IMG/VR virus record: IMGVR_UViG_3300009128_002071 | Span: 1 to 39,103 of that record | Reading direction: 5' to 3' (one strand) | Origin: a virus | DNA: 39,103 nt | Part shown: positions 11,567-39,103 of the stretch, piece after piece | Position numbering within the stretch: position 1 is the first letter of the stretch | How the letters are laid out: each line of letters begins with the position of its first letter | The notes under the pieces: generated by a model | What the model saw: the letters and a program-made list of their open reading frames with translations, nothing else | The model's database searches: none | Told to the model about the DNA's origin: nothing | Position numbers and translations under genes: made by a program

Positions 11567-12741
11567 TACAAGCCAATCGCATCTTCCAGCTCCTCTTCCT
11601 TCCCCCACAGCCAAACCCCCAGCAGCACCGCACCCGCCATGTCCAGCAAACTAACGCTCACATCCCCGCCGATCATCTCCTGGTACTCGTCCATCGCTGG
11701 CCAGCCTTGCCCTTGGCGCATCCACGTCCCCAACTGGCTGGTGAAATCATCCGCCTTCATCAGCACCGCTGTCTTGTAGCACATACACTGGATATGGATC
11801 GGCAGAATGATCTCGCCTTTTGGATACTCCTTTCCAGCAATACTTTCGCACTCGCAGCCAATCGGCGGGTGTGCATCCGAAAGGTGGATCTTTTCCTTCT
11901 CGATCCAGGGGATCTTCGCCCAAATGGCATCGTTGGCCATCTGGTGCGCTACCTGGATCTCGTTTCTGGCCAGCCTCAACGCATTCCACGCCACCCCCTG
12001 CTCGGCGCAGTCGTCGCCACGCTTCAAGCCGGTCTGATCACCAGCAGCGATTTCGCCTTTTGTCCGCCCAAATAACCGGGTGCTCGTCCAGCGTGGGCAA
12101 TCCTGGCCAGCCCCCAAATACTGCTCCAATTCCTTCGCCAGATCCCAGGCGCTTTGCCCCTGGCTCAGCGCATTCAGATACACCTGTTTGATCCTCTCCT
12201 GCGCCTCCTGGTCGACTCGCCAGATCCGGTCGCTGAGCTGCATCCCCTCGATCACTCGTGTCTCCCCTGCATCCAATATCGCCTGCAACTGCGGCTCGAA
12301 CAACGATTCCTGCACAGCAGATCGTTGTTCGCTCCACGAGCCACCGTCTCGCGGCGTAGCCGCCTCGGTGAGCGAGTAGGAGCCCACCTGATCCTTCAGC
12401 CACTCCTGCCGCACCGCCAGTCCACCAAACGCAAGCCACGCAGCCTCCCGCCTGGCAGCTTCCAAAATAACTTGATACTCTTCGAAGAACTCACCCCACG
12501 CATTCAGCGTCACCTCTTGCGCCAGGTAGGCTGACAACCCATCTGCGGCGAGCGGGGTTTCCTTGCCCGCATCGCCCACATCTGCAACAGGGGTTGCAGA
12601 TGCCAATGCCCTCCTCCCCATCTCCACCACATCATTCAAACCTCGGTGCAGCTCCCCAGTCACAAACAGCAACAAACGCACCAACGCCACCTGCATTGCT
12701 GATTCGACACCTTTCTGCTTGAGATCTGTGACCTGCGGCAT
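11566..12741 (-). CDS. SPP1 gp7-like head morphogenesis protein
   Basis: About 391 residues. The C-terminal third shows the gp7/MuF signature: ARNEIQVAHQMANDAIWAK, then LSDAHPPIGCECESIAGKEY and ILPIHIQCMCY with paired Cys, His and Cys. Such minor head proteins bind the portal and are sometimes ejected with DNA. It begins right after the portal gene (4-5 nt apart), typical for this pair. Residues about 46-66 (LASATPVADVGDAGKETPLAA) are written by double-hairpin element copy A, which looks inserted in frame in a helical N-terminal region. ATG 12741 is chosen over the GTG just before it. Confidence 0.85.
   Translation of the reverse strand: MPQVTDLKQKGVESAMQVALVRLLLFVTGELHRGLNDVVEMGRRALASATPVADVGDAGKETPLAADGLSAYLAQEVTLNAWGEFFEEYQVILEAARREAAWLAFGGLAVRQEWLKDQVGSYSLTEAATPRDGGSWSEQRSAVQESLFEPQLQAILDAGETRVIEGMQLSDRIWRVDQEAQERIKQVYLNALSQGQSAWDLAKELEQYLGAGQDCPRWTSTRLFGRTKGEIAAGDQTGLKRGDDCAEQGVAWNALRLARNEIQVAHQMANDAIWAKIPWIEKEKIHLSDAHPPIGCECESIAGKEYPKGEIILPIHIQCMCYKTAVLMKADDFTSQLGTWMRQGQGWPAMDEYQEMIGGDVSVSLLDMAGAVLLGVWLWGKEEELEDAIGL
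12545..12603 (-). repeat. Double-hairpin element, in-frame copy A
   Basis: 59 nt inside the gp7-like gene. Plus strand: stem GGCGA-GCGGG with CCCGC-A-TCGCC, spacer CA, then hairpin CATCTGCAAC/GTTGCAGATG with loop AGGG. Coding-strand peptide: ASATPVADVGDAGKETPLAA. Confidence 0.85.
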
Positions 12742-12745
12742 CACC

Positions 12746-14134
12746 CTACTCCCTACTCTCTAATCCCTGAAGAATCTCACCCAACCGCCCCGCATCTCCG
12801 CCTTGCCCTGAGCCCTGTCGAAGGGCCCCCTGCCCCCCATCACCTGTCAGCGTCAGCATCTCCATATCCACCCCCGGCAGGAACTGCATCAGCACTGCAA
12901 CCACCACCTCCTCAGGCACACCTATCAATCGTAGCCGCATCGCCGCTTCAGCAATATCCTTCACATCAGCCGCTGTCACCTGTCGTTTCTGCTTCCACTC
13001 GATCTTATAATCCAACCCCTCTGGCAAGATCCCCGCCAAAAGCCACTGGCGCTCCAGAAGCGGTTGGATCAACTGATCAGAAACCCATTCCCGCTGCTGC
13101 TCCAGCATCTCGTCATACTGTTCTTTTTTCTCCCCCAGGATATCTCGGTTCAAGCCTTCACCGTAAGCAATCAGCTCCATCGGCACATCCCCCGCTGTGA
13201 ACCATGTGGCGATCATATGCTGCACATCTTTGATCTCACCCAGGTGCATATCCCCCTCCACAGACTTGATTTCCACTGTCCCAAAGAAGTCCGCCAGAGC
13301 CGCAAATTTCTCGTCAAGCGCCGGTTTATTGCGCTCCATATATTCCAGGATCGCAGATTCGTCCGTTCCCTCCGGGAATTTATGCACATACCGCTTCCCC
13401 GCTCGCGTCTTCCTTCGAATGGCAACATCCAGCTCTCCCTCTGTCACTTTTTTCCAGTGTCCCGTCCCGCTGGCCAGCATCGGCTCCCCATACCGGCTGC
13501 CCTCGTCGTGGTCCCAGCGCGCATGGATAATCTGCCACTCGGGGAACCAGATCGCATCCCGCGGCGGATCCTGGCCGATGAACATCTGGTCCGCCCACCA
13601 AAAAGCCTTATCAGGATCTTCGAACAGGTCATACTTATTCGAATTCCTGCTCATCTCCAACGTCGGCTTCCGGCTCACATCCACAATTTCTAAGTTTTGG
13701 TTGATCACCGTCTCCAAAAAGCTGTCCCCATCCCTGGCACTCAATCGCACCCAGTCGTCCAGCCTCTTATCCAGCTTCAGCCGCTCTCTCAAAGCCTCCG
13801 CCACATCAAAAGCTCTTGCGGCGAGCGGGGCATCCTTGCCCGCATCGCCCACATCTGACACGGGAGTGGCAGATGCCCCCTCCCCCATACGCAACACATA
13901 CCCCCCCTTGACAAGGTCCCTCGCCAGCGAGCGGATCATCTTCTTCGCCCTTGGATCGCTGGCATACATCTTCCTGCAGGTTCGCACAATTCCCGCCCGC
14001 GACGTCTCCGCCGTGAACTTCTGCGCCAGCTCGCTCGGCCTTTCTGGCTCCCTATCCAATGCCAGCGTCGTCTGCTCCACATCTGGCTTCCGCTTTCCGA
14101 ATATTCCCGTTATCCTGTCACGCAATCGTGCCAT
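12746..14134 (-). CDS. Portal protein
   Basis: 462 residues. The portal forms the dodecameric DNA gate at one head vertex. Supporting features are the N-terminal MARLRDRITGIFGKRK, the clip-like segment DPPRDAIWFPEWQIIHARWD, the EPMLASGTGHWKKVTEGELD motif and DVPMELIAYGEGLNRDILGE, all in the order seen in phage portals of the DUF935/SPP1 type. Two repeats have entered the gene: double-hairpin copy B (peptide ASATPVSDVGDAGKDAPLAA, about residues 87-106) and a CCTGAGC-GTCGAAGG repeat near the C-terminus (ALRQGSGQGG). The gene lies after the capsid genes rather than right after the terminase. Confidence 0.85.
   Translation of the reverse strand: MARLRDRITGIFGKRKPDVEQTTLALDREPERPSELAQKFTAETSRAGIVRTCRKMYASDPRAKKMIRSLARDLVKGGYVLRMGEGASATPVSDVGDAGKDAPLAARAFDVAEALRERLKLDKRLDDWVRLSARDGDSFLETVINQNLEIVDVSRKPTLEMSRNSNKYDLFEDPDKAFWWADQMFIGQDPPRDAIWFPEWQIIHARWDHDEGSRYGEPMLASGTGHWKKVTEGELDVAIRRKTRAGKRYVHKFPEGTDESAILEYMERNKPALDEKFAALADFFGTVEIKSVEGDMHLGEIKDVQHMIATWFTAGDVPMELIAYGEGLNRDILGEKKEQYDEMLEQQREWVSDQLIQPLLERQWLLAGILPEGLDYKIEWKQKRQVTAADVKDIAEAAMRLRLIGVPEEVVVAVLMQFLPGVDMEMLTLTGDGGQGALRQGSGQGGDAGRLGEILQGLESRE
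12807..12825. repeat. CCTGAGC...GTCGAAGG dispersed repeat, portal copy
   Basis: CCTGAGCCCTGTCGAAGGG inside the portal gene; coding-strand peptide ALRQGSGQG. The same core occurs at 24818 and 37673. Confidence 0.7.
13818..13876 (-). repeat. Double-hairpin element, in-frame copy B
   Basis: 59 nt in the portal gene. First stem as in copy A. Second hairpin CATCTGACAC/GTGGCAGATG has one mismatch and loop GGGA. Coding-strand peptide ASATPVSDVGDAGKDAPLAA, same frame as copy A. Confidence 0.85.
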
Positions 14135-18417: not shown

Positions 18418-19005
18418 CTAGTCATTGACCACATACTCCAAAACGACCTTGAACTTACCGACCTGAGTGGCTGCAATACCAGTGAGACGTGCCCATACAT
18501 TGCCGTTCGCAGGCACATCATCCACGCCAGATCCCAGCGTCAGGGCAGTTTTGGAACCTACCGCCTTCGCGTTTTCTAAGTTGGTTGCCGCCACAATGTT
18601 GGATCCGCCTTTGGTTGTTCCGAGTTGGATGGTCGCACCCGAAGCATCACCCGAATCGGTCTGCTCTGTATAAGTTACCTGGGCTGCAATTGGCGTAATA
18701 GGCACAGTCGTGTGCAGCATCAGGTCATCGACATTGACACCTGCGCCAGCATCGATATTAAATTCTTGCGACATAATGTAGCGTCTCTTCGCATTCGTCG
18801 CCTGCTTCGCTGGCGTCACAGCTCCAGAACCGATCTTGGCCGCAGTCACCGCACCGCTGCCTATCTTGGCTGCAGTCACCGCACCGCTGCCTATCTTGGT
18901 CGCTGTCACCGCACCGCTGCCTATCTTGGTCGCTGTCACCTTCTCGTCATTGATCGTTCCATCCGTCGATCCATGCGGCACATGTACATCTGCTTTGTTA
19001 CTCAT
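18418..19005 (-). CDS. Repeat-containing head fibre / decoration protein
   Basis: About 195 residues. The N-terminus (MSNKADVHVPHGSTDGTIND) is followed by about five units of KIGSGAVTAA, a pseudo-repeat of the kind found in phage fibres, and a globular C-terminus (ARLTGIAATQVGKFKVVLEY). It lies right after the capsid gene, where head decoration or head-fibre genes are found. The start at 19005 has AAAGGAATG upstream; the longer frame begins in a hairpin spacer. Possible target of the adjacent glycosyltransferase cassette. Confidence 0.65.
   Translation of the reverse strand: MSNKADVHVPHGSTDGTINDEKVTATKIGSGAVTATKIGSGAVTAAKIGSGAVTAAKIGSGAVTPAKQATNAKRRYIMSQEFNIDAGAGVNVDDLMLHTTVPITPIAAQVTYTEQTDSGDASGATIQLGTTKGGSNIVAATNLENAKAVGSKTALTLGSGVDDVPANGNVWARLTGIAATQVGKFKVVLEYVVND
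18813..18940. repeat. 30-bp tandem repeat coding KIGSGAVTAA units
   Basis: About four and a half copies of a 30-bp unit (GCACCGCTGCCTATCTTGG core on the plus strand) inside the fibre gene. Later copies are nearly identical, suggesting recent expansion. Confidence 0.85.
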
Positions 19006-19027
19006 AGAAACATTCCTTTCTATTAAT

Positions 19028-19057
19028 CCCCCTTTCTCCACGTGTGGGGAAAGGGGG
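19028..19057 (-). terminator. Strong hairpin between capsid and fibre genes
   Basis: A 14-bp stem (outer arms CCCCCTTTC/GAAAGGGGG, one G-T pair) with a 2-nt loop. It has no T-run on the coding strand (ATTAATAG follows), so it may be an attenuator or RNA-stability element. It lies in an AGGGGGATA-type repeat spacer. Confidence 0.5.
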
Positions 19058-23275: not shown

Positions 23276-24005
23276 CAGCCTCCGAAGATCCACTCACAGC
23301 TTCTGCGGCGAGCGGGGGTTCCTTGCCCGCATCGTCAACATCTGATACTCCTGTATCAGATGCAGCCTCAGTAAACCGCTTTTGAACTTCATCCGCTTTT
23401 TGTTTTGCCTTCGCCATTTCATCCGCAGTGAAATTCATCGCTCCAATCACCGGAGCCTGGTCACTCTTGTCCCCTACCAAGGTGTAATACAGCTCTCTGT
23501 CAGGCTTATTTTTATAATCTGGCTTCGATGCGCTTTCGATCAGCGCCGCATCTACCCTTGAACGGTGTTCGAAAAGTGCCCGGCTGCGCATCAACGTGAT
23601 ACTTGCATCGATGTCGAAACCATCCTTCTGCATGCGCTTCTTCAGCTTATGCAGTTGCCTGGCGCTCGTCCAGCCAATGACATCCTGACACAATTTCTCA
23701 AGAGTTACGGGATATCGGTCAACTCTCGCAGATGTGGACCAGGCGATATACACCGCCAGCCAGTGTGGCCAGTGCTTCTCCTCCACCATAAAGGCATAAT
23801 CCTCATACCACCCAAATCTTTCTTTAGCCTTTGGCTTCAGTTTCAGGAAATTCTCCCTGGCAAGATCCAGCCGTTTCCTGGCCTGCTCCGGCGTCTCCCC
23901 ACCCACTTCGTCAACATCCGGAAGCAGCTTCTCCAGGAAGCTGTACTGCTGGTCTACACCCAGCGGGAAGATCAACTCATCAGGATTCGGTTTCTTTACA
24001 CTCAT
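23268..24005 (-). CDS. Terminase small subunit-like DNA-binding protein
   Basis: 245 residues, directly upstream of and overlapping TerL, as small terminase subunits do. It starts MSVKKPNPDELIFPLGVDQQ. Its middle has a helix-turn-helix-like segment (YPVTLEKLCQDVIGWTSARQ followed by LHKLKKRMQKDGFDID). The C-terminal 35 residues include the peptide of double-hairpin copy C (SDTGVSDVDDAGKEPPLAA), which therefore lies in a tolerant tail. It recognises DNA and regulates TerL in known systems; here the assignment depends on synteny. Confidence 0.75.
   Translation of the reverse strand: MSVKKPNPDELIFPLGVDQQYSFLEKLLPDVDEVGGETPEQARKRLDLARENFLKLKPKAKERFGWYEDYAFMVEEKHWPHWLAVYIAWSTSARVDRYPVTLEKLCQDVIGWTSARQLHKLKKRMQKDGFDIDASITLMRSRALFEHRSRVDAALIESASKPDYKNKPDRELYYTLVGDKSDQAPVIGAMNFTADEMAKAKQKADEVQKRFTEAASDTGVSDVDDAGKEPPLAAEAVSGSSEADG
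23305..23363 (-). repeat. Double-hairpin element, in-frame copy C
   Basis: 59 nt at the 3' end of the small terminase gene. First stem GGCGA-GCGGG with CCCGC-A-TCGTC, second hairpin CATCTGATAC/GTATCAGATG with loop TCCT. Four of ten pairs differ from copy A, all still paired. Confidence 0.85.
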
Positions 24006-24228
24006 AGCCCATAAAACCTTCGTGCTGCTCGTCCACTATTGAGATACCGTTTTGCTTCGAGCACACAAGCCCTACAACATCACGTGACCCGTCTTCGAAA
24101 TCAACCAGCGCCCATCCGACGAGCGGGATTTCCACTCCCGCATCATCGACATCTGACGCATGAGCGTCAGATGCCATGTCAAACCTCGCCACCCACCCCG
24201 GCGCTGGCATGATTTGCAGAATTCTCAT
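23980..24228 (-). CDS. Small phage protein split by a double-hairpin insertion
   Basis: 82 residues: MRILQIMPAPGWVARFD, then the element peptide MASDAHASDVDDAGVEIPL, then GWALVDFEDGSRDVVGLVC. If the element is removed the two halves join as one compact beta-rich domain, so the element appears to have entered a surface loop. It overlaps the small terminase start by 26 nt and the holin-like gene by 4 nt, so it is part of the operon. Function unknown. Confidence 0.65.
   Translation of the reverse strand: MRILQIMPAPGWVARFDMASDAHASDVDDAGVEIPLVGWALVDFEDGSRDVVGLVCSKQNGISIVDEQHEGFMGYECKETES
24116..24174 (-). repeat. Double-hairpin element, in-frame copy D
   Basis: 59 nt. First stem keeps GCGGG/CCCGC but outer pairs are partly lost. 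Second hairpin CATCTGACGC/GCGTCAGATG is perfect, loop ATGA. Confidence 0.8.
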
Positions 24229-27996: not shown

Positions 27997-28372
27997 TCAC
28001 CGCCCTGCGGTGAGCGGGCTGATCCTTGCCCGCATCGCCCACATCTGCCACATGAGTGGCAGATGCACGCTCCATCCCCCTCACGAACCGCCGCATCTCA
28101 TATTCCCCCGGCACCCAAGTCCGGATATAAGAACTCTCACCTTCATCCCTGCAAGCATCACACTCCACCGGCATCTCCCCCAACCCCCAAAAAATCGACA
28201 GTGCCTGCGCTTCCGCCAGATCATCAGGGACCACTGCATGCCGAAACAACAGCAATCCTCGCCCTTTCCCATTTTCTTGCACCACCAACCCCAGCACGTG
28301 CCGCTTATTCGGACACTGCCAGCGCACTTCCGTCTCTTCCTGGTATGCCTTAAAATCGACCTTCTCACTCAT
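27986..28372 (-). CDS. Small phage protein with double-hairpin peptide at its C-terminus
   Basis: 128 residues starting MSEKVDFKAYQEETEVRWQC behind GGAGGTCGGCGG. It has Cys/His residues that may bind zinc (CPNKRH, CDAC). The C-terminal 25 residues contain the copy E peptide (ASATHVADVGDAGKDQ), with the frame shifting after one extra base in the hairpin loop so that the protein ends AHRRAVNDE. Overlaps its neighbours on both sides. Function unknown. Confidence 0.6.
   Translation of the reverse strand: MSEKVDFKAYQEETEVRWQCPNKRHVLGLVVQENGKGRGLLLFRHAVVPDDLAEAQALSIFWGLGEMPVECDACRDEGESSYIRTWVPGEYEMRRFVRGMERASATHVADVGDAGKDQPAHRRAVNDE
28007..28066 (-). repeat. Double-hairpin element, in-frame copy E
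   Basis: 60 nt (one extra loop base). First stem GGTGA-GCGGG with CCCGC-A-TCGCC, second hairpin CATCTGCCAC/GTGGCAGATG, loop ATGA. Confidence 0.85.
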
Positions 28373-30318: not shown

Positions 30319-33300
30319 TCATTCCGCCGGTGGCTCCCAATCCAATGGCAGCACCCCAAACTTCTTCCCCAAACTCACCATCTTGATCTCATCCCAATAC
30401 ACCGGTATCCCCGTCCCCTGGCGATTCCCCACCCGGATCTGCAAATTGTTTCGGATGATTTTCCCAACGCCCGGCGCGGTTAGCTCCTTGCCTTTCTTCT
30501 TCGCTGGGGGGAGTGGTTCCCCATTTTTGTTATACATCGTCGGCACAGGCTCCGGCGCACTTCCCCCTTGGTTGATCTCGTCAGTGATCCGGTTGGCCTC
30601 CTTACGGATATCCGCCATCCACAAATACTGTTCGCCCTCACGGCTGCGCTGTAAATATGCCCCCCCGGCATCGTTATAGAGATTCCACATCGCTTCCACA
30701 ATGTAGGCATCCATCGTCATGCTGCGAGTTCCAATGATCTCCAAGTTATAAGCCCTTAGAAACCGCTCGATCTCCTCATACAGCTCTGTATCCTTGATAT
30801 TCCCCTCGCCGTCCAAAGTCAGCGCTTTGATGGGCATCGTCACCTGGTTCATACGGGCAGGCAGGTTCACATCCATCAACTCGTCCGTCAGCTCAATCTC
30901 AGGCACCCAGTTCTCCAGCCGCCAGCGAAGCAGCATATTCCGCAACCGCAGTGCATGCTCCCTGAATTCACGGTTGATATGCAGCGGAATTCCCGCCATC
31001 TTCAGTTCCATGCTCTCCCTGGCCATCAGCTTCACCGTTAGTGCCCTGGATCCCACCGCCTTGTCCTTGAAATCCTCTCGCATCGCAATCAGCTTGGGGC
31101 AGAACGTATCGAACGCCATCGGCTCGTATGTGCGATCACCATTCCAATTGGTCACTTCTACCAAGCGGCTGATCACATTACCCTTCATCGCCCCCAGGTT
31201 CAAGAACTTCACCAGGTCGTTGGCCATATCGCCCCCATCGTTCAGGTCCGCTTCATCAATGAACACCGTCCCCTTATACATCTCCACCGTCCGGAAGAAT
31301 GTCGCACTGGTATTGGCACCGCTGGCCATCGTCAACCTGTAGCAGAGGTATCCCACCCGCTTCATCAATTCGCTCTTCCCTGCGCCAGCATCGCCCGTCG
31401 CTCTCAGATAAGTCAGCGCCTCAAAGCTGTCGTAGATCCACGTCAGCAACACATAATAAGCCATGATCTTTGCCAGATACTTATCCGGCAAGAGATAATA
31501 TCGATGAATAAACCCTTCCAACAGCACAATCAGGTCCTTCATCGCCTTACGTTTCCCCACCGCCGATGGAAACAAAACCGCACCCCGCCGCACAAAATCA
31601 CTTGGCGGTTTCGGCACCAGCTTCAGTCCATCGACCACCAGGTCTTCCCCCTCTTCAACCTGCGCAGTGGGATCCGTATAATCACGCCAGGCCAACCGGG
31701 CTTCATCCTTCGCCGCATCATACAAATACTCAACCAGGTAGTTTCCAAACACACCGCCCAGTGTTTCTTCGATATCCCCCGCATTCCCCTTGTCGGTTTT
31801 GACGTGCTTTTTCAGGATGTTGTCATACTCTCGCACAGAGTAATCCATGGATCCTGCCAACTGTTTGCGATATTGAGCCCGGTCGTCCACATCCATTTTG
31901 CCGATCAGCTCGAACGCCGTTTTTGCTGCATCTCGTTTATCAGCGCCTCGCTGTTTCCCGGCCCATTCCGCCACAATCACCGCCATAGGTTTCACTGTAC
32001 CTAGGCGTTGTTCCCACTTCCGCATCTGACCATCGAAATCCACCTCTTCGCCGATCATATGCATCAGCCAATCGTTGGCATCGCCCACCCCCTCGATCTG
32101 TGGCCACCGCAGCAGCCAGGCCATCGGTCCTAAAGCCTTCGCCACTTCCCATTCCCCATAGCCTTGTCCAACTCCAGTAGCAGCAGCCCCCGACAGTGAT
32201 TCCCAGGCCGGGGCTCCGCTCTCCAGCGCAAAATACACCCGCTTGTGCCGGTTGCGCAGGTCCTCCAACAGCCGCAGCATATCATCACCCTTCAATCCCA
32301 TAGTAGCAGCAGCAGCCTGCCCCCATTGTCCCAGCGTGATCGCATCTGCAGGCCCCTCCACGATCACCACACTTTTTTCCCCGCGGTTGTACTCAAAATT
32401 GAAGAATGGTTTCCTGGGACCTACCAACGCTTTTGCCAGGTTATGACTCTTCGGTTTTTCCTGGCCTATCAGCTCGCCTTTTTTCCAGGCAAGGTTCCGG
32501 GCCGAGAAATACCCTACCCTTCCCCCAAAAATGTGCGGGTACAGCAACCGGGGGAAATCCAGCATCCCATAGATGCGCCCCTTCTCGATCCAGTTGGACC
32601 GCAGCTCCACACCCCACTTCTTTCCCCAGGCTAATATGTCATCCTTCCCACCTGGTGGGGCATACCCTACTATGGCCACCGCAACCGGGCACTCCGGGTC
32701 ATGGCCATACATTTGCAGGTCTCCAATCAGATCCTTGCGCTCTTCAGGTGTACCACGGCCAGAGAACCCCAGCCTGGCCTTCTGTATCGACCCTGGCCAA
32801 TCCTTCCCCTGTTCATCCTTGTGGACCGTACTCCATCCCCGGCCCAGGGCGTAGGCCATGGCTGCCTGGTTCTCCTTCTTGGCCAGTTGCGTCTCGAACC
32901 AGCGGCAGGCAATCTCGAACAGTTCCACGCGCTGCTTATACGCCGTGATCCTCTCCCGGTCGGTATCATCCATCTGGCGCAGCTCGCTGGGGATGGGGTG
33001 GTTGTACTTCCCTGCCAAGTACTCCACCGCTGGCCAGAACTCCATATTCCTATAGCGCTGCATCCAGTGGAAGATATCCCCGCTCTCCCCCCCTTTTCTC
33101 CACCATTTGTAGATCCCCCAGTCAAGACGCACTTCCAGGCTATCGCCCGGCCCACCAGACCCCTTACGGATCCCCGAAACCACGCCACCCACAGCTCGAT
33201 CCTGCATCCCGTAACCAGGCCCAGTCGCTTCAATCTCCGCCACGAAGTCAACCTTGGCCTTCAGCTCGTCGATATATTCTCTAAAACTGTCGTTGCTCAT
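30319..33300 (-). CDS. Primase-helicase with altered primase motifs
   Basis: 993 residues. The N-terminus (KVDFVAEIEATGPGYGMQDR, RKGGESGDIFHWMQRYRNME) aligns by eye with DnaG-type CHC2 primase zinc domains but has no zinc-binding cysteines. A TOPRIM domain begins VVIVEGPADAITLGQWG with catalytic Glu315. The second acidic motif, normally DxDxAG, is replaced at residue 360 by ESGAPAWESLSGAA. The C-terminal half has an ATPase with Walker A TGDAGAGKS (Lys642), Walker B TVFIDEAD and an arginine-finger segment (AVGSRALTVKLM). ACAAGGTGATCA precedes ATG. It probably unwinds DNA at the phage origin; primer synthesis is uncertain. Confidence 0.8.
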   Translation of the reverse strand: MSNDSFREYIDELKAKVDFVAEIEATGPGYGMQDRAVGGVVSGIRKGSGGPGDSLEVRLDWGIYKWWRKGGESGDIFHWMQRYRNMEFWPAVEYLAGKYNHPIPSELRQMDDTDRERITAYKQRVELFEIACRWFETQLAKKENQAAMAYALGRGWSTVHKDEQGKDWPGSIQKARLGFSGRGTPEERKDLIGDLQMYGHDPECPVAVAIVGYAPPGGKDDILAWGKKWGVELRSNWIEKGRIYGMLDFPRLLYPHIFGGRVGYFSARNLAWKKGELIGQEKPKSHNLAKALVGPRKPFFNFEYNRGEKSVVIVEGPADAITLGQWGQAAAATMGLKGDDMLRLLEDLRNRHKRVYFALESGAPAWESLSGAAATGVGQGYGEWEVAKALGPMAWLLRWPQIEGVGDANDWLMHMIGEEVDFDGQMRKWEQRLGTVKPMAVIVAEWAGKQRGADKRDAAKTAFELIGKMDVDDRAQYRKQLAGSMDYSVREYDNILKKHVKTDKGNAGDIEETLGGVFGNYLVEYLYDAAKDEARLAWRDYTDPTAQVEEGEDLVVDGLKLVPKPPSDFVRRGAVLFPSAVGKRKAMKDLIVLLEGFIHRYYLLPDKYLAKIMAYYVLLTWIYDSFEALTYLRATGDAGAGKSELMKRVGYLCYRLTMASGANTSATFFRTVEMYKGTVFIDEADLNDGGDMANDLVKFLNLGAMKGNVISRLVEVTNWNGDRTYEPMAFDTFCPKLIAMREDFKDKAVGSRALTVKLMARESMELKMAGIPLHINREFREHALRLRNMLLRWRLENWVPEIELTDELMDVNLPARMNQVTMPIKALTLDGEGNIKDTELYEEIERFLRAYNLEIIGTRSMTMDAYIVEAMWNLYNDAGGAYLQRSREGEQYLWMADIRKEANRITDEINQGGSAPEPVPTMYNKNGEPLPPAKKKGKELTAPGVGKIIRNNLQIRVGNRQGTGIPVYWDEIKMVSLGKKFGVLPLDWEPPAE

Positions 33301-33322
33301 TGATCACCTTGTAGTCGTCTTG

Positions 33323-33420
33323 TGTTATGTGACATAAATATGGGTAGATAAACCATCGAAAACCTAATGAATTCACGCTCTCAGGGGCTGAAAATGACGC
33401 ATAATACCTGTTATGTGACA
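33323..33420. promoter_or_regulatory. Two direct copies of TGTTATGTGACA upstream of the primase gene
   Basis: Copies at 33323-33334 and 33409-33420, 23 and 109 bases before the primase start. The core is nearly palindromic. Possibly an operator for a phage repressor; no repressor is seen in the window. Confidence 0.4.
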
Positions 33421-33528
33421 GAAACCAGGCTCATCGAAGAGCGAAAAAGTTTTTGTGGGCGAGGCACAGGCCAGGCATTTGCACGGTGTAAAAGTGAACT
33501 TGGCGTTTTTCTTCGCTGCTGATTTCAT
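33373..33528 (-). CDS. Possible small zinc-binding peptide
   Basis: 51-codon frame MKSAAKKNAKFTFTPCKCLA with Cys-rich segment CKCLACAS and a later CHI. The composition is plausible for a phage zinc peptide. No clear ribosome-binding site, and another frame overlaps it, so this is weak. Confidence 0.3.
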   Translation of the reverse strand: MKSAAKKNAKFTFTPCKCLACASPTKTFSLFDEPGFCHITGIMRHFQPLRA

Positions 33529-33566
33529 AGATACATGCGGCGGGGGGGAGTGGGGGGCAAAGCAGT

Positions 33567-34190
33567 TCACGCTCTCTCTGAACGGCGCTTGCGTGCGTAC
33601 CTGGCTTTTCTTGGGGTCGTTGGACCATGACCATCACCTTGATGCTGTGTCCAGAATTCATCGATCTTGTAGAGCACACCTATCCAGTCAGATGTTGTAT
33701 GTAGAGCATCACCACAGGCACAGTAGAGCCTGACTGTTACCGAATGAACATGATCAGAGAAGTGCAAACGGCATTCAGTAAAAGGCTTCTCTGGAAAGAT
33801 TAGTGGAATGTCTGCGCGGATTTCTCTTGGCTCAAGCACAATCTCGATTACATCAATAGATGGATCCACGTCATCAGCGTCATAATCGACCAATGCAGCA
33901 TGTAGCCAACCTAAATCCGGACCTTGCAGAACTACTGGATCACATGAAATCGCATGGTCGACCAGGCGAGTAGCTGGCCTGCATAACATCTGGAGAACCT
34001 GCAATAGGCGCGTTTTGCCAGTACCAGGCTCGCCGTTGATCACCAATACTGCATGATTTCGATGACCATGGAATTCGTACCAGGTACGTTCAACAAAATC
34101 GACGACCTGGCTTTCAATATCATCTGGTAAATCCACGTACTTATGGATAATTCTTTTCGCAGTTCTTCTTATCAAACGATCATCGCTCAT
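33567..34190 (-). CDS. Truncated P-loop ATPase fused to a small zinc-type domain
   Basis: 207 residues from MSDDRLIRRTAKRIIHKYVD (ATG 34190, GAGGTGAG in front). The N-terminal 75 residues repeat the pattern of the primase ATPase (LPDDIESQVVDFVERTWYEF, INGEPGTGKTRLLQVLQMLC, Walker A 53-60). No Walker B or arginine finger follows. From about residue 120 the protein changes to a tail with CACGDALHTTSDWIGVLYKI and FWTQHQGDGHGP, like a separate small phage protein. The last residues are basic. It may bind nucleotide but is unlikely to hydrolyse it as a motor. It lies upstream of the primase gene in the same operon. Confidence 0.6.
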   Translation of the reverse strand: MSDDRLIRRTAKRIIHKYVDLPDDIESQVVDFVERTWYEFHGHRNHAVLVINGEPGTGKTRLLQVLQMLCRPATRLVDHAISCDPVVLQGPDLGWLHAALVDYDADDVDPSIDVIEIVLEPREIRADIPLIFPEKPFTECRLHFSDHVHSVTVRLYCACGDALHTTSDWIGVLYKIDEFWTQHQGDGHGPTTPRKARYARKRRSERA

Positions 34191-34362
34191 CTTGCTCACC
34201 TCTCTCAACATTCGGGTCAACAACATCTGCCCACCGACGCAGCTTCTCAGCGATGTAATCACGATCTTGTTTGGAGATCTTAGAAACATCACCTATCAAT
34301 AGTGCGATCTCAATAAGCAAACAATTAGCGTCCTGGCTACCTGTATGAACTTTCTCACTCAT
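34180..34362 (-). CDS. Small hypothetical phage protein
   Basis: 60 residues from MSEKVHTGSQDANCLLIEIA (ATG 34362, GGAGGGTGTGAG in front). Predicted helices with acidic end (VVDPNVERGEQDER). Overlaps the next ATPase start by 11 nt. No domain recognised. Confidence 0.55.
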   Translation of the reverse strand: MSEKVHTGSQDANCLLIEIALLIGDVSKISKQDRDYIAEKLRRWADVVDPNVERGEQDER

Positions 34363-34363
34363 C

Positions 34364-34630
34364 TCACACCCTCCCAGCCCATGCATAGGGACCACCCAGC
34401 GCATCGATGCCCACTGGCTCGATCTTGATCTGCTCACAGATCTCAACCAGTTCCGGATCCTCGAGCGCCGCATCGAAAGCAGACTGCGGCATATAGCAGA
34501 CATTCGGCTCTTGCCTGAAATGCCGCTGGTATGCTGCTACTGCTTCTCTAATTGTCTTTGGCCAGGTACCAGACTTCGTTTTCAAAGCCTTATTCCCGGC
34601 GAACGCAAACGGGATCTGAGCTTCAGACAT
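34364..34630 (-). CDS. Small hypothetical phage protein
   Basis: 88 residues from MSEAQIPFAFAGNKALKTKS (ATG 34630, AAGGTGAGTGAA in front). It contains a helical segment WPKTIREAVAAYQRHFRQEP and an acidic middle. The start overlaps the region just after the small gene before it. Function unknown; typical short early phage gene. Confidence 0.5.
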   Translation of the reverse strand: MSEAQIPFAFAGNKALKTKSGTWPKTIREAVAAYQRHFRQEPNVCYMPQSAFDAALEDPELVEICEQIKIEPVGIDALGGPYAWAGRV

Positions 34631-34631
34631 T

Positions 34632-34718
34632 TCACTCACCTTCAATCCCTCTGGCCTCAGTCAACTTCATTACCGCATTGTTGACTTCTACCAAAGCTAG
34701 CGCCGTTCGTTGGGTCAC
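34632..34718 (-). CDS. Very small ORF between early genes
   Basis: 28 codons from a GTG (VTQRTALALVEVNNAVMKLT) with AAGGCGAT seven bases before. Amphipathic helix-like. Its stop lies two bases before the next start, consistent with coupling. Short; low confidence. Confidence 0.35.
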   Translation of the reverse strand: MTQRTALALVEVNNAVMKLTEARGIEGE

Positions 34719-34801
34719 ATCGCCTTCATCTTTGATCGGCTTGCGTCAGTTGCTCGGCGGGTTATGCCTGAGAGACTGACGATAATAAGATTTTGACAGG
34801 G

Positions 34802-35059
34802 CTACTCACCCGTTTTTGCAGGCGCATTAGCCGAGTCAACTGCACGTTTTGTTAGGCGTGTTCTATCAACATAGCGAACTCGCCTGATATGTTCCTTGCC
34901 TTTCCAGTACCTATCGCCAAAAACCAAGATTTTGACACGATAACCATCAGGCATATTCTTCAGAACGTGGCAGCGCATTGTGTAATCGTAACCATGCAAG
35001 CCTATCGCGTGCCTACATGATAAAAAGTGAGTTGCATTTTCATACGTTTTCTCTTCCAT
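34802..35059 (-). CDS. Small hypothetical phage protein
   Basis: 85 residues from MEEKTYENATHFLSCRHAIG, ATG 35059 with TTTTGGAGAAAATT before it. Basic C-terminal half (VRYVDRTRLTKRAVDS). Two Cys and several His near the N-terminus could bind metal. No family recognised. Overlaps the end of the membrane protein upstream. Confidence 0.5.
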   Translation of the reverse strand: MEEKTYENATHFLSCRHAIGLHGYDYTMRCHVLKNMPDGYRVKILVFGDRYWKGKEHIRRVRYVDRTRLTKRAVDSANAPAKTGE

Positions 35060-35492
35060 AATTTTCTCCAAAACAAACGCCTAACAGTGCCTTCATTTCA
35101 CGTTGAGCCTCGCTTAGGGCGATCAGCGCATCGTCGATCAAGCCTGCTGCTGCATAAGGTAGAGGTTTGCGCCTGGGCGCTTTCTTCTTGGCATCTTTCT
35201 TTCTCTTGGTCAAACTGCGCCGGATATCGCCAAAGATCATGAACAGACCATCCGCAAAGTACAGAGCCACGCCCAAAACCGCCGCCCGCCATGAAATCAC
35301 AGCCACGCCTAACTGGGTCACCACTACGCCCAGGGCAACCAATAAGGCCGTGTATCCGTCTTTATCTTCCCCCAGGTCATCCATCCACTTGTTATAGCGC
35401 CATCCAAAGATGGCCAGAGCCACCACCACCGATGCGATCGCAGTCCAGAAGTTCTGCGGATCTTGCACAAATCCATTCAAAAAATCGCCCAT
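35040..35492 (-). CDS. Small membrane protein
   Basis: 150 residues from MGDFLNGFVQDPQNFWTAIA (ATG 35492). Three hydrophobic segments: FWTAIASVVVALAIFGWRYN, TALLVALGVVVTQLGVAVIS and WRAAVLGVALYFADGLFMIF. A very basic tail follows (KRKKDAKKKAPRRKPLPYAA). It sits just after the integrase gene in transcription order and overlaps the next gene by 20 nt. The basic cytoplasmic tail could touch DNA, but no function is assigned. Confidence 0.55.
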   Translation of the reverse strand: MGDFLNGFVQDPQNFWTAIASVVVALAIFGWRYNKWMDDLGEDKDGYTALLVALGVVVTQLGVAVISWRAAVLGVALYFADGLFMIFGDIRRSLTKRKKDAKKKAPRRKPLPYAAAGLIDDALIALSEAQREMKALLGVCFGENYGRENV

Positions 35493-35611
35493 ATTCACAC
35501 CGCCAATCCAAATTCCGCTATATTCAACCCAGGGACAGCGCACGCGCCAGTCCCCGGTACCTTAACAAATCAATAGCAGTAGATGAAAGAGTGACACCCC
35601 CACACGTTCAC

Positions 35612-36589
35612 CTACTGCCGCTCGACCGCCTCCTGCAGATCTTCCATGTGGGGCAGGGTGTAGCGCCTGGTCGTGTTGATATCCAACTGACGCAATTGCG
35701 ACCCAACCTCTTCGATCGATGCCCCCTCACGCATCAGCGTGTACGCACAGGTATGGCGTAGCTTGTGCGCTGAGACGCCCTCCAGGCCGCACTGCTGCGC
35801 CAGTTGCTCCACATCCCGCTGCAGGGTCCTTTTGCTTGAACCAAACAGAGATCCAGCTTCCGGTCCACGTCTGGCCAGCCAATCACCTAATGCAGATCTG
35901 GCTTCTTTGTTGACCGCCACGGTGCCTTCGGCGATCCCCTTACTGTTGTGGATCTGGATAGTCCCCTTGCGCTCGCTCAGATGTAGATCTCTGATCTGCA
36001 AATTGGCCACTTCCTGAGCGCGCAGTCCCACATTGACCATCAAGTTGACCGCTGCCCTGGTCCGGAGCGCCTTTTCATACTGTTTACCTGATCCTGTTTT
36101 CTCGAGGCGAACGTATGCCGCCTCGACGTTGGCATTGGCCTGGCGCAGAACACGGCCCCGTTCCCCTCGAGCCAGGCTCTGCGGAGCCAGCTTCTGCTTC
36201 TTAGCCCCCTTGACATCCTTCAACGGGTCGCTCTCCGGGCGCAGATGGCCGTACGCCTTGGCAAACAGCACAAAGCTACGCAGCGCAGCCAGGCGCGCCA
36301 GCCAGGTATTGGCCTTGATCACTCCAGCATCCAGCGTCTCCCGCCGCCAGCGGTTGACGTCCGGACCATACAGCAGCCCCGGTCTGAAATCTTCCCGCAT
36401 CGATGCCCGGAACCACTTGGCATACATCCGCACCCCACGCACGTACTGTTCAACAGTATTTGGATTATCCCCCCGTCCTCCCAGCCACCCCTCGAAATCG
36501 GTCAAAAAATCTCCCTCACTAACCACCCAGTCCACACGGCGCACATCGCACACCGCACCCCTCACATCCACCTGGTCCATGAGAATCAT
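35612..36589 (-). CDS. int: Tyrosine recombinase (integrase), unusual active site
   Basis: 325 residues. An N-terminal SAM-like DNA-binding part (NPNTVEQYVRGVRMYAKWFR) precedes the catalytic domain: Arg190 in VNVGLRAQEVANLQ, a Lys in HNSKGIAEGTV, HKLRH at 275-279 and nucleophile Tyr310 in TTRRYT. The usual LGH/W motif before the tyrosine reads QLRQ-LDINTT, so the second histidine (about residue 301) is replaced by glutamine. It should catalyse integration at the tRNA-Glu site. The start overlaps the stop of the ATPase gene as ATGA. It lies 34 kb from the attachment site, with more phage genes beyond. Confidence 0.85.
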   Translation of the reverse strand: MILMDQVDVRGAVCDVRRVDWVVSEGDFLTDFEGWLGGRGDNPNTVEQYVRGVRMYAKWFRASMREDFRPGLLYGPDVNRWRRETLDAGVIKANTWLARLAALRSFVLFAKAYGHLRPESDPLKDVKGAKKQKLAPQSLARGERGRVLRQANANVEAAYVRLEKTGSGKQYEKALRTRAAVNLMVNVGLRAQEVANLQIRDLHLSERKGTIQIHNSKGIAEGTVAVNKEARSALGDWLARRGPEAGSLFGSSKRTLQRDVEQLAQQCGLEGVSAHKLRHTCAYTLMREGASIEEVGSQLRQLDINTTRRYTLPHMEDLQEAVERQ

Positions 36590-37230
36590 TTCACTGCTCC
36601 CTGTAATAGATCGTGATAAAACGTATCAAAATCAGCCCGTCCTTCTGAAAAGGAAAATGAGTGTGCCCACTCTGCCAGCCAAGGCATCACATCCTGAGCC
36701 ATTGTCGCAAAACTAAACCCGGCAAAGGCATACAAATCGAATGGACTTCGGATTTTCATCTCAATGAATTTGCAGCGACTGTTCAAAGAATTATCTTTGA
36801 AGCGCTCTCTCCCCACGTAGATCTTCGGTCCAAAAACGTTGAAAGCCTTTACTTCAAAGCCTTCATCTTCCCCTTCGATTGCTCTCACAACATCTTTGGT
36901 ACCTACTATGGCATTTCTGTCCCACTCGGAAAGCACATATTCTTCGATGATCACCGTTCTTCCACCAGCTAATTCCATCATGGCACTGAGGCTCATTTTG
37001 TGAGCAAAGATCGATTCATAACAAACGTGTGAAAGGACTTTAGATAAATGGCTCTTGCCAATCCCAGGCTCCCATCCTATGATCGCCAGCACAGGCACAA
37101 CATTCATCTGCTGGTGTACCCAGGTCATCATCACCCAGGCTGCTGCCAGCTCATACTGCTCTCTATCCAACATTACGCTAGTCTTCAAATACTCCTTCAA
37201 TTTCGTAAAAACGACATTAGTTTCAATCAT
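36586..37230 (-). CDS. ATPase coupled to the integrase, relative of the primase ATPase
   Basis: 214 residues. Walker A is IGWEPGIGKS (52-60, Lys59), Walker B TVIIEEY (92-98) and a likely arginine finger lies in LNSRCKFIEMK near residue 155. By eye it aligns with the primase C-terminal ATPase: LAAAWVMMTWVHQQMNVVPV versus IMAYYVLLTWIYDSFEALTY and FGPKIYVGRERFKDNSLNSR versus FCPKLIAMREDFKDKAVGSR. It has no primase part. Coupled by 4-nt overlaps to both the gene before it and the integrase. May assist integration or act as an accessory helicase; inference. Confidence 0.7.
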   Translation of the reverse strand: MIETNVVFTKLKEYLKTSVMLDREQYELAAAWVMMTWVHQQMNVVPVLAIIGWEPGIGKSHLSKVLSHVCYESIFAHKMSLSAMMELAGGRTVIIEEYVLSEWDRNAIVGTKDVVRAIEGEDEGFEVKAFNVFGPKIYVGRERFKDNSLNSRCKFIEMKIRSPFDLYAFAGFSFATMAQDVMPWLAEWAHSFSFSEGRADFDTFYHDLLQGAVK

Positions 37231-37508
37231 TTCTCACCCCCGCTTCTGGTTATTCGAGTATCTAAATCGATTAATGCTTGGCCTATTTGCCCCAAAAGGC
37301 CACGACGCATCCGGTCGGGCGGTGTGGGTGTTGGGTGGGTTGTGGCTTTTGAAAGCTCTCGAAGAAATGTTTCAAAAGTTGGGTTGCTTATTCCTCCAAC
37401 ATTCATGCCCCATAGCACTGTATCGGGATATATTCGGCATTCTTTACGACCAAGGCTTTTGTCGTACGCGATTGTTTTCTTGTCCCAAGTTACGACTGTT
37501 TTTAACAT
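37227..37508 (-). CDS. Small protein at the head of the ATPase-integrase cassette
   Basis: 93 residues from MLKTVVTWDKKTIAYDKSLG (ATG 37508, AAAGGAAACT in front). Basic strand-rich N-terminus, then a flexible Thr/Pro stretch (KATTHPTPTPPDRM) and a C-terminal helix (GLLGQIGQALIDLDTRITRS). The stop overlaps the ATPase start by 4 nt. No domain recognised; may be a DNA-binding partner. Confidence 0.55.
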   Translation of the reverse strand: MLKTVVTWDKKTIAYDKSLGRKECRIYPDTVLWGMNVGGISNPTFETFLRELSKATTHPTPTPPDRMRRGLLGQIGQALIDLDTRITRSGGEK

Positions 37509-37545
37509 AATAGTTTCCTTTTTTTGTGTAGTAAGAATGCATCGA

Positions 37546-37752
37546 TTAACCAGCATCCACACGACCGAGCTCGTCATTCTCGCTGAAGCGCCACTCAGAC
37601 CATAGGAACAGGCCCAGGACCAGGAGCACCCCAAACATCCCCACCAAAACCCAGGCCTCGATCTGCGCTTGGCCTGAGCCCAGTCGAAGGACTCCCCATC
37701 CTATCCCCAGCAGGCTGATCAGCACATGCAGCACTATCACCCGGTTGGCCAT
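37546..37752 (-). CDS. Small two-TM membrane protein containing a dispersed repeat
   Basis: About 68 residues from MANRVIVLHVLISLLGIGWG. TM1 and TM2 (AWVLVGMFGVLLVLGLFLWS) are separated by LRLGSGQAQ, written by a CCTGAGC-GTCGAAGG repeat. A longer frame from 37896 exists but its N-terminus is coded by a palindromic element. Start chosen at 37752; the palindrome arm provides GGAAAGCG as a weak ribosome-binding site. Overlaps the gene before it in another frame. Confidence 0.5.
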   Translation of the reverse strand: MANRVIVLHVLISLLGIGWGVLRLGSGQAQIEAWVLVGMFGVLLVLGLFLWSEWRFSENDELGRVDAG

Positions 37753-38023
37753 CCACGCTTTCCGACGCGGTTTTGCCGTCGGAAAGCGCCCCTGGAGCAT
37801 CTCGCTCGCCCTGGGGCGCGAAAAGCGACGTAGGGGCTCCCAATATTTTTTCTTCACGTTCTTTCTCCTTTCGATCCATTTCTTGACAATCGTCAACAGA
37901 TAGTTGCGGCTCCATCAACCCCCACAGCCAGAGTGCAGCCTCTCGCCAGGCTGCCCGTTGCTCCTCGGTCTCGATGGGCACATACTCCACTTCGAAGCGG
38001 ATTGGGGGCTTCCTAATAGACAT
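37595..38023 (-). CDS. Hypothetical phage protein with low-complexity C-terminal half
   Basis: About 142 codons from MSIRKPPIRFEVEYVPIETE. The first 60 residues are well formed (a strand, then QRAAWREAALWLWGLMEPQL). The following part (GAPTSLFAPQGERDAPGALS, ASESVDGQPGDSAACADQPA) is written by the palindrome at 37756-37819 and then by sequence that reads better in the frame of the membrane protein. It is likely that the original protein ended earlier and was extended by an insertion. Confidence 0.5.
   Translation of the reverse strand: MSIRKPPIRFEVEYVPIETEEQRAAWREAALWLWGLMEPQLSVDDCQEMDRKEKEREEKILGAPTSLFAPQGERDAPGALSDGKTASESVDGQPGDSAACADQPAGDRMGSPSTGLRPSADRGLGFGGDVWGAPGPGPVPMV
37673..37690. 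repeat. CCTGAGC...GTCGAAGG dispersed repeat, membrane-protein copy
   Basis: CCTGAGCCCAGTCGAAGG; coding-strand peptide LRLGSGQA, same frame as the portal copy (LRQGSGQG). Confidence 0.7.
37756..37819. repeat. Palindromic double-hairpin element (divergent type)
   Basis: 12-bp stem CGCTTTCCGACG/CGTCGGAAAGCG (37756-37788) followed by GCGCCCC/GGGGCGC (37786-37819). Two hairpins as in the other family but with different core sequences and loop sizes; relationship uncertain. Confidence 0.55.
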
Positions 38024-38228
38024 CCGCCATATACTCTGCAAACGGGGTGACCACAATCGGTTGCGCCTGCAGCAAATCGAGCACCGTGCCTGGCTTGTAG
38101 TATCCGGCCCCTTCGGTGTATTCCAGGCAGTCCTCCACCGACGACTCGAACCACCCCACCGGATCGCCCCATTTCTTCAAGTCATCGGGGTGCGCTCGAT
38201 AGCGTTTGTAGATCTTCAGATCTGACAT
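38013..38228 (-). CDS. Small hypothetical phage protein
   Basis: 71 residues, MSDLKIYKRYRAHPDDLKKW and GWFESSVEDCLEYTEGAGYY. Mixed helical character, no domain recognised. Overlaps both neighbours (16 nt with the gene before it, 11 nt with the gene after), so it belongs to the early operon. Confidence 0.5.
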   Translation of the reverse strand: MSDLKIYKRYRAHPDDLKKWGDPVGWFESSVEDCLEYTEGAGYYKPGTVLDLLQAQPIVVTPFAEYMADVY

Positions 38229-38575
38229 TGGTCGTAATAGGCTTTCAAGATCTCCAATTGCTCATCCCCCCAAATGACAATGAAGCCATAGTTGCGGCGG
38301 ATCTTCTCGAGGCCCAGGTTCTTCGTCGCAAACCCAATTTGACCGTTGGAAACTGCAAAGCCCCTATCCTGAAGTTTCCTTGAAAGATCCGCAATCGACA
38401 CTCGCCAGAATACCCGCTTATCCACACTGAGTTCCTGGTTCTCTTCTGTAGAAAGTTCCGCCATCAACTTCACCAGTTCGGGAACAAAATCGATCTTTCG
38501 TCCCGTCACCAGTGGACGGTTTGCAATCACCGCTTCCGTCGTCTTCTGATCAACAATCAAGTACATATCATCCAC
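38216..38575 (-). CDS. Putative winged-helix protein
   Basis: 119 residues. The middle (LSVDKRVFWRVSIADLSRKL followed by QDRGFAVSNGQIGFATKNLG) has a helix-turn-helix-like arrangement, and RRNYGFIVIWGDEQLEILKA forms a C-terminal strand and helix. It resembles DNA-binding C-terminal domains of phage primases and accessory proteins. DNA target unknown. Early gene, possible regulator. Confidence 0.45.
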   Translation of the reverse strand: MDDMYLIVDQKTTEAVIANRPLVTGRKIDFVPELVKLMAELSTEENQELSVDKRVFWRVSIADLSRKLQDRGFAVSNGQIGFATKNLGLEKIRRNYGFIVIWGDEQLEILKAYYDQCQI

Positions 38576-38587
38576 CTTTTCCCTTTC

Positions 38588-38830
38588 CTATGAATTACTA
38601 TTCACTCCTAGCCATAAGTGATTGGGCAGCAACGATTTGCTCCCCCTCACTTCGACCCCAGCTACTTCACACTTGGCACCCTTGACCATCTTGGGGTGCA
38701 CAAAGCACAAATTCGGCCTTCCCCCATATTTTTTCGCGTAATACGCGGCTGCCCTTTCCACCTTGGTATCCAGGTCAGCATCCTTGTCGTTATCGAACCA
38801 AAGCATCCCGATATCCACACAACCCTCCAA
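38588..38830 (-). CDS. Small conserved-type hypothetical protein
   Basis: 80 residues: MLWFDNDKDADLDTKVERAA, AAYYAKKYGGRPNLCFVHPK and SKSLLPNHLWLGVNSNS. The MLWFDND...KVERAA...YYAKKYG...PNLCFVHP pattern recalls small proteins I associate with Chloroflexota genomes. Function not known. It sits between two early phage genes. Confidence 0.5.
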   Translation of the reverse strand: MEGCVDIGMLWFDNDKDADLDTKVERAAAYYAKKYGGRPNLCFVHPKMVKGAKCEVAGVEVRGSKSLLPNHLWLGVNSNS

Positions 38831-38836
38831 TCACAT

Positions 38837-39103
38837 TCAATTGACAATCTCTTCAATGGCCCCCATAACCATCCCCCTGGCCGCCGATCGCTCAGCATCG
38901 ATCCACTCACAGATCTGCTTCACCAGCCAGGCTTCGAAGCGGTTCCCCGGCAGCGGTGTGTGGTACTTCAACGCATCTAACCGCTCGACATACAACCGCA
39001 GATCCTTGCTGATTTCTTCCGCCTGTTGGACCGGCGTCTGCCCCTTGCGCAGCCACACCGAGGCCGCCATCACCCAAATTGGAAATCCCAAGAAGTATTT
39101 CAT
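38837..39103 (-). CDS. Hypothetical phage protein reaching the window edge
   Basis: 88 codons from an ATG whose first base is the last base of the window (KYFLGFPIWVMAASVWLRKG). The N-terminus is hydrophobic, and the C-terminal half helical (KQICEWIDAERSAARGMVMG). It is impossible to see whether the true start lies upstream. Function unknown. Confidence 0.45.
   Translation of the reverse strand: MKYFLGFPIWVMAASVWLRKGQTPVQQAEEISKDLRLYVERLDALKYHTPLPGNRFEAWLVKQICEWIDAERSAARGMVMGAIEEIVN

Follow-up and report, generated by a model that had tools for sequence, protein, structure and literature searches.

Phage tyrosine integrases are textbook ATP-independent recombinases. In the DDE transposons, the AAA+ matchmakers MuB, TnsC and IstB provide the example of a small ATPase that is encoded beside a recombinase and regulates it. 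A tyrosine recombinase under the control of an ATP-driven DNA motor is found in the XerCD–FtsK system (PMC5357621), and in SCCmec the cch and cch2 operons, which form a replication system, lie directly before the ccr recombinase genes (PMC7581432). The pre-sensor-1 hairpin of the MCM and SF3 helicases has been implicated in DNA translocation (PMC3859580). In this work, we describe a temperate phage whose tightly packed integrase operon also encodes a small stand-alone ATPase akin to the motor of the phage's primase.

The window that we analyzed is the whole of an IMG/VR virus record of 39,103 bases (IMGVR_UViG_3300009128_002071). Three ORFs on its minus strand are linked by two 4-nt overlaps, as the initial annotation had claimed, and both overlaps read ATGA. 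A 93-aa ORF with an ATG start (37227–37508) overlaps the start of a gene for a 214-aa stand-alone AAA+ ATPase (36586–37230), whose stop in turn overlaps the gene for a 325-aa tyrosine integrase (35612–36589). The interval originally assigned to the trio, 36586–37508, covers the ATPase and the 93-aa ORF but leaves the integrase outside. Purine-rich, plausible ribosome-binding sites are present upstream at both junctions. Overlaps of 4 nt are commonplace in phage operons, so by themselves they indicate co-transcription and nothing more. The 93-aa ORF had no match in Pfam, PHROG, NCBIfam or PADLOC, and no homologue of it was found in any of the fetched loci; the trio is therefore not conserved, and of the three-gene arrangement for which a search had been proposed, only the ATPase–integrase pair recurs, in the related record G004.

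Three further minus-strand genes of the window bear on the ATPase. The DnaG-type primase-helicase (993 aa, 30319–33300) ends in an AAA+ domain (approximately residues 574–798) that belongs to the same family as the ATPase. Directly upstream of the primase lies a third P-loop protein (241 aa, 33567–34292), in which only the N-terminal half, as far as Walker A, is a match to the ATPase family (hhalign, 95.7%). Upstream of the 93-aa ORF, the ATPase and the integrase is a 119-aa gene (38216–38575), homologues of which precede the integrase immediately or at a short distance in records G006 and G009, with no ATPase in between.

When aligned with 28 relatives, the ATPase displays a Walker A motif (GWEPGIGKS), a Walker B motif (TVIIEE) and an arginine finger (S151–R152), and R152 is invariant across the resulting 29-row alignment. 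Searches with the protein returned no match in Pfam, NCBIfam or PADLOC and no significant match in PHROG, in which the best family, PHROG 3277 (DnaC-like loader), was weak (E 0.27) and aligned over the P-loop region only. The AlphaFold model derived from the 29-row alignment (mean pLDDT 84, pTM 0.83) has an AAA+ core with a pre-sensor-1 hairpin at residues 113–131 (strands 113–119 and 125–131), placed between the Walker B and sensor-1 strands. In a Foldseek search with this model, MCM, papilloma E1, AAV Rep, D5 and SaPI5 Rep ranked high (E ~1e-5 to 1e-6), and VIA-align matched it to MCM with a Z of 13.4 and an rmsd of 3.5 over 201 aligned residues; the DnaC, MuB and IstB folds were absent among the fold-search matches listed. 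With the Walker A and B motifs, the hairpin, the fold and the arginine finger all present, the predicted structure marks the protein as a minimal ATPase of the MCM/SF3-like (pre-sensor-1 hairpin) AAA+ type.

The same model consists of the AAA+ core and terminal helices only, with no N-terminal origin-binding or collar domain and no C-terminal winged-helix domain. The hairpin segment comprises 21 residues in the ATPases of the window and G004, compared with 27–29 in the complete primases. The tip of the hairpin in the window ATPase (EGEDEGFE) is acidic and has no basic residue; the primase copies have K or R at this position in nearly all cases, the least clear being L028 (KGNEE), and the G004 ATPase retains one lysine near the tip. 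Two features of the replicative SF3/MCM helicases, the basic hairpin-tip residue and an extra N- or C-terminal domain, are thus missing from the window ATPase. The shortened hairpin without a basic tip, together with the lack of an added DNA-binding domain, argues against a second replicative helicase. We infer that the capacity to hydrolyze ATP as an oligomer looks preserved, and that processive unwinding is doubtful.

The ATPase had originally been aligned with the C-terminus of the primase over Walker A, Walker B and the SR finger, and this kinship was borne out. The motifs align as described, and the ATPase is 32% identical to the AAA+ domain of the window primase over residues 21–167 in tblastn (E 1.7e-10), with an E of 2.7e-14 in blastp. 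Judged by sequence, the ATPase is homologous to the motor of the window primase, far beyond chance, yet distinct from it.

The window, G004 and phage Rctr41k belong to one virus group that has portal, head and capsid genes in common (the capsids being 47–51% identical to that of the window), and their stand-alone ATPases cluster together. In a first tree, the window ATPase grouped with that of G004 (97/89) and both with that of Rctr41k (90/83); in a second tree, the corresponding values were 98/83 and 79/94. The ATPases of the window and G004 also have a common Walker B signature, IIEE[YF]V[LF]SE, and each of the two phages has, in addition, a complete primase that includes a motor of its own. 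Both trees place the ATPases on long branches, and a topology with the window ATPase as sister of the window primase was not rejected (AU p 0.138), so that a recent origin by duplication of that primase's motor is disfavored only. The integrase phylogeny does not track that of the ATPase: the G004 integrase is sister to the xerC product of Rctr41k (100/99), and the window integrase falls into the same clade at an unsettled position.

Does the ATPase accompany a recombinase in other phages? We surveyed 24 IMG/VR records and phage Rctr41k for stand-alone copies, using an alignment-based scan and full-record profile searches, and found them, besides the window, in G004, G016, G006 and Rctr41k. 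In G004, the record of which is essentially complete because it has a 344-bp near-exact terminal repeat, the ATPase (1295–2005) precedes the integrase (2002–2976) in the order of the window and with the same ATGA overlap. The G004 ATPase is the nearest relative of the window ATPase (30% identity), and the two integrases are 27% identical. In G016, a longer stand-alone ATPase heads an overlapping operon in which a 97-aa gene, a 74-aa gene and the integrase follow. In Rctr41k, the ATPase adjoins and follows, across a 69-nt gap, a second tyrosine recombinase, an integron-type integrase (L004:4680–5678; TIGR02249, 383 bits against a cut-off of 265), and xerC, the orthologue of the window integrase gene, is not adjacent to it. 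A related second recombinase, syntenic with this integron-type integrase, is present in G004 (L074:898–2271). In G006, the stand-alone copy lies directly after the primase gene and not by the integrase. The notion that Rctr41k has no primase was dropped, as its record is partial and, to judge by gene order, lacks the region where the primase lies in G004.

No stand-alone copy was present in 16 of the 19 integrase-bearing IMG/VR records. G021 has the same capsid gene as the window and an integrase, and no stand-alone ATPase; G015, whose integrase is the sister of the G016 integrase and which has a gene similar to the 97-aa gene of the G016 operon, likewise has no ATPase. In other relatives, differing small genes occupy the slot immediately before the integrase. 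Since most related integrases occur without a stand-alone ATPase, the integrase has no general need of one, and the ATPase is optional. Several other scans added little: single-sequence scans in which the ATPase or the integrase was run against the viral and genome collections, as well as a two-row scan, gave no match because the patterns were too specific, and so do not speak for absence; the scan of genome contigs with the primase and the search of the plasmid collection gave none either; and a scan with the motif A[FY][NS]VFGPK returned mostly chance matches, together with G016 once more and another helicase.

By a rough estimate, recombinase adjacency in G004 and Rctr41k together with near-adjacency in G016 would have a chance of ~5e-4 if the genes were placed at random genome-wide, but only of ~0.01 if they were confined to the early region, so the pairing evidence is supportive, not overwhelming. 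From the sequence comparisons, the pairing of ATPase and integrase looks real, and at least one further, divergent phage of the group has kept it. The idea of an integrase coupled to an ATPase thus fits the G004 pair, the G016 operon and the recombinase neighbor in Rctr41k, but not the majority of relatives, whose integrases stand without it. The accompanying idea of a helper motor needed by the integrase is not established, considering the 16 records without a copy, the separate xerC of Rctr41k and the G006 copy beside the primase. To its premise, that tyrosine integrases normally need no ATPase, XerCD with FtsK is an exception already known.

The window integrase itself matches PF00589 (E 5.7e-24) and has the catalytic residues R190, K217, H275, R278 and Y310, with Q301 at the usual H/W position. 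This glutamine is unique among 17 aligned integrases, the other 16 of which keep H. No exact repeats of 14–30 bases were found between the left end (1800–2700, which holds a tRNA-Glu) and 33000–39103, so no attR was identified within the window. An ORF start falls at each end of the record (1 and 39103), and the tRNA-Glu (1879–1953) lies near the left end beside host-like genes; the window is probably a provirus that was cut at gene boundaries. In G004, the non-coding stretch upstream of the ATPase–integrase pair (L044:991–1295) contains a T-arm-like sequence, GAAGG-TTCGAAC-CCTTC, and is a candidate attP; neither ARAGORN nor Rfam supported the tRNA-like T-arm.

Elsewhere in the window, five dispersed repeats of ~72 nt were observed (12538–12609, 13811–13882, 23298–23369, 24109–24180 and 28001–28072). 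All are read in the same frame, each falls within a different predicted protein, and the encoded peptide is close to ASATPVADVGDAGKExPLAA. They hold an inverted repeat, the arms of which vary between copies yet stay complementary (for example, CATCTGATAC/GTATCAGATG and CATCTGACGC/GCGTCAGATG). The repeats look like an in-frame palindromic element in the style of the Rickettsia palindromic elements, and their core motif was absent from the other fetched loci. In addition, four or five 30-bp tandem repeats at 18805–18954, in the ORF 18418–19041, encode the peptide TATKIGSGAV.

Could the ATPase serve as an ATP-driven regulator of the integrase? We tentatively favor this reading, at somewhat less than an even chance: as an optional regulator, the ATPase may cooperate with the integrase at the attachment sites, or it may link excision with replication. 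It would assemble into a ring or arc via its arginine finger and, in an ATP-dependent manner, act at attachment-site DNA jointly with the enzyme encoded in its operon. There, it might control integration versus excision, remodel the recombination complex, or hold the excised circular phage DNA until replication. All the AAA+ catalytic parts are present in a confident model, and the short hairpin without a basic tip in the window copy, combined with the lack of any other DNA-binding domain, suggests a switch or matchmaker and not a processive helicase. On the other hand, genes of early operons are co-transcribed for many reasons, the G004 ATPase keeps its hairpin lysine, most of the integrase-bearing records (16 of 19) do without a copy, and the G006 copy sits by the primase. 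That the ATPase is a dedicated ATP-driven helper, a primase-derived MCM/SF3-like ring recruited to control integration or excision as the tyrosine-recombinase counterpart of MuB or TnsC, seems rather unlikely.

Nearly as likely as a regulator of the integrase is a pure replication accessory, merely co-expressed with the integrase as part of the early operon, which would modulate, load or join the primase-helicase ring or open the origin after excision. Such a role would suit a homologue of the primase motor with the fold of replicative helicases and the place of the G006 copy directly after the primase gene, and the closest known arrangement, SCCmec cch/cch2 before ccr, is biochemically a replication system (PMC7581432). 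However, the window and G004 already own a complete primase-helicase, and in both phages, the conserved place of the ATPase is beside the recombinase, not the primase; the protein is, moreover, a minimal ATPase without an origin-binding or oligomerization domain and, in the window copy, without a basic hairpin tip. The variable content of the slot upstream of the integrase, where homologues of the 119-aa gene occur without an ATPase in G006 and G009, and the patchy distribution of the ATPase would accord with an accessory cargo gene, for example, for superinfection exclusion or interference with the replication motors of other phages. This is improbable, as the absence of a PADLOC match lends no support to a defense role and the pairing with the integrase recurs in G004 with an identical overlap. 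Even less probable is a functionless, decaying remnant of a duplicated primase motor. The short hairpin, the fast evolution seen in the long branches and the third, half-matching P-loop copy in the window could be read in that way, but the frame is open, all catalytic motifs and the invariant arginine finger are in place, the start overlaps the preceding gene behind a good ribosome-binding site, and a related copy is retained in G004 and Rctr41k.

If the integrase does have a conserved AAA+ partner, an energy-dependent layer would be added to the control of phage integration, and a route would become visible by which a replication motor is recruited into recombination; the pay-off would rise with the demonstration of an ATP-dependent integrase. 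Should the ATPase act in replication, its operon with the integrase would still be SCCmec-like and would suggest excision–replication coupling in this phage group.

How does the locus compare with the known systems? The matchmakers MuB, TnsC and IstB serve DDE transposases and belong to a different AAA+ branch, and no significant profile match was found for the window ATPase. XerC/XerD–FtsK resembles it in combining a tyrosine recombinase with an ATP-driven motor, which for the window ATPase is a proposal. FtsK itself belongs to another ATPase family, being a large translocase anchored in the membrane; it is not encoded beside xerC or xerD and is not known to be related to the window ATPase. 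With the phage primase-helicases of the SF3/MCM/D5 type, including the window primase and the DUF3631-linked ATPases, the window ATPase has in common the AAA+ core, the pre-sensor-1 hairpin and the SR finger; it differs in standing alone, with no primase part or C-terminal domain, and in its shorter hairpin without a basic tip. The SCC recombinases are serine recombinases, whereas the enzyme here is a tyrosine recombinase (PF00589) and not a large serine recombinase. SCCmec cch/cch2–ccr and the loci of the window, G004 and G016 are alike in that a mobile element carries, upstream of its site-specific recombinase, a gene of the AAA+ helicase type, and Cch is MCM-like (PMC7581432), as is the fold of the window ATPase. 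Cch and Cch2, however, are full helicases in replication operons, whereas the phage combines a bare AAA+ core with a separate primase-helicase.
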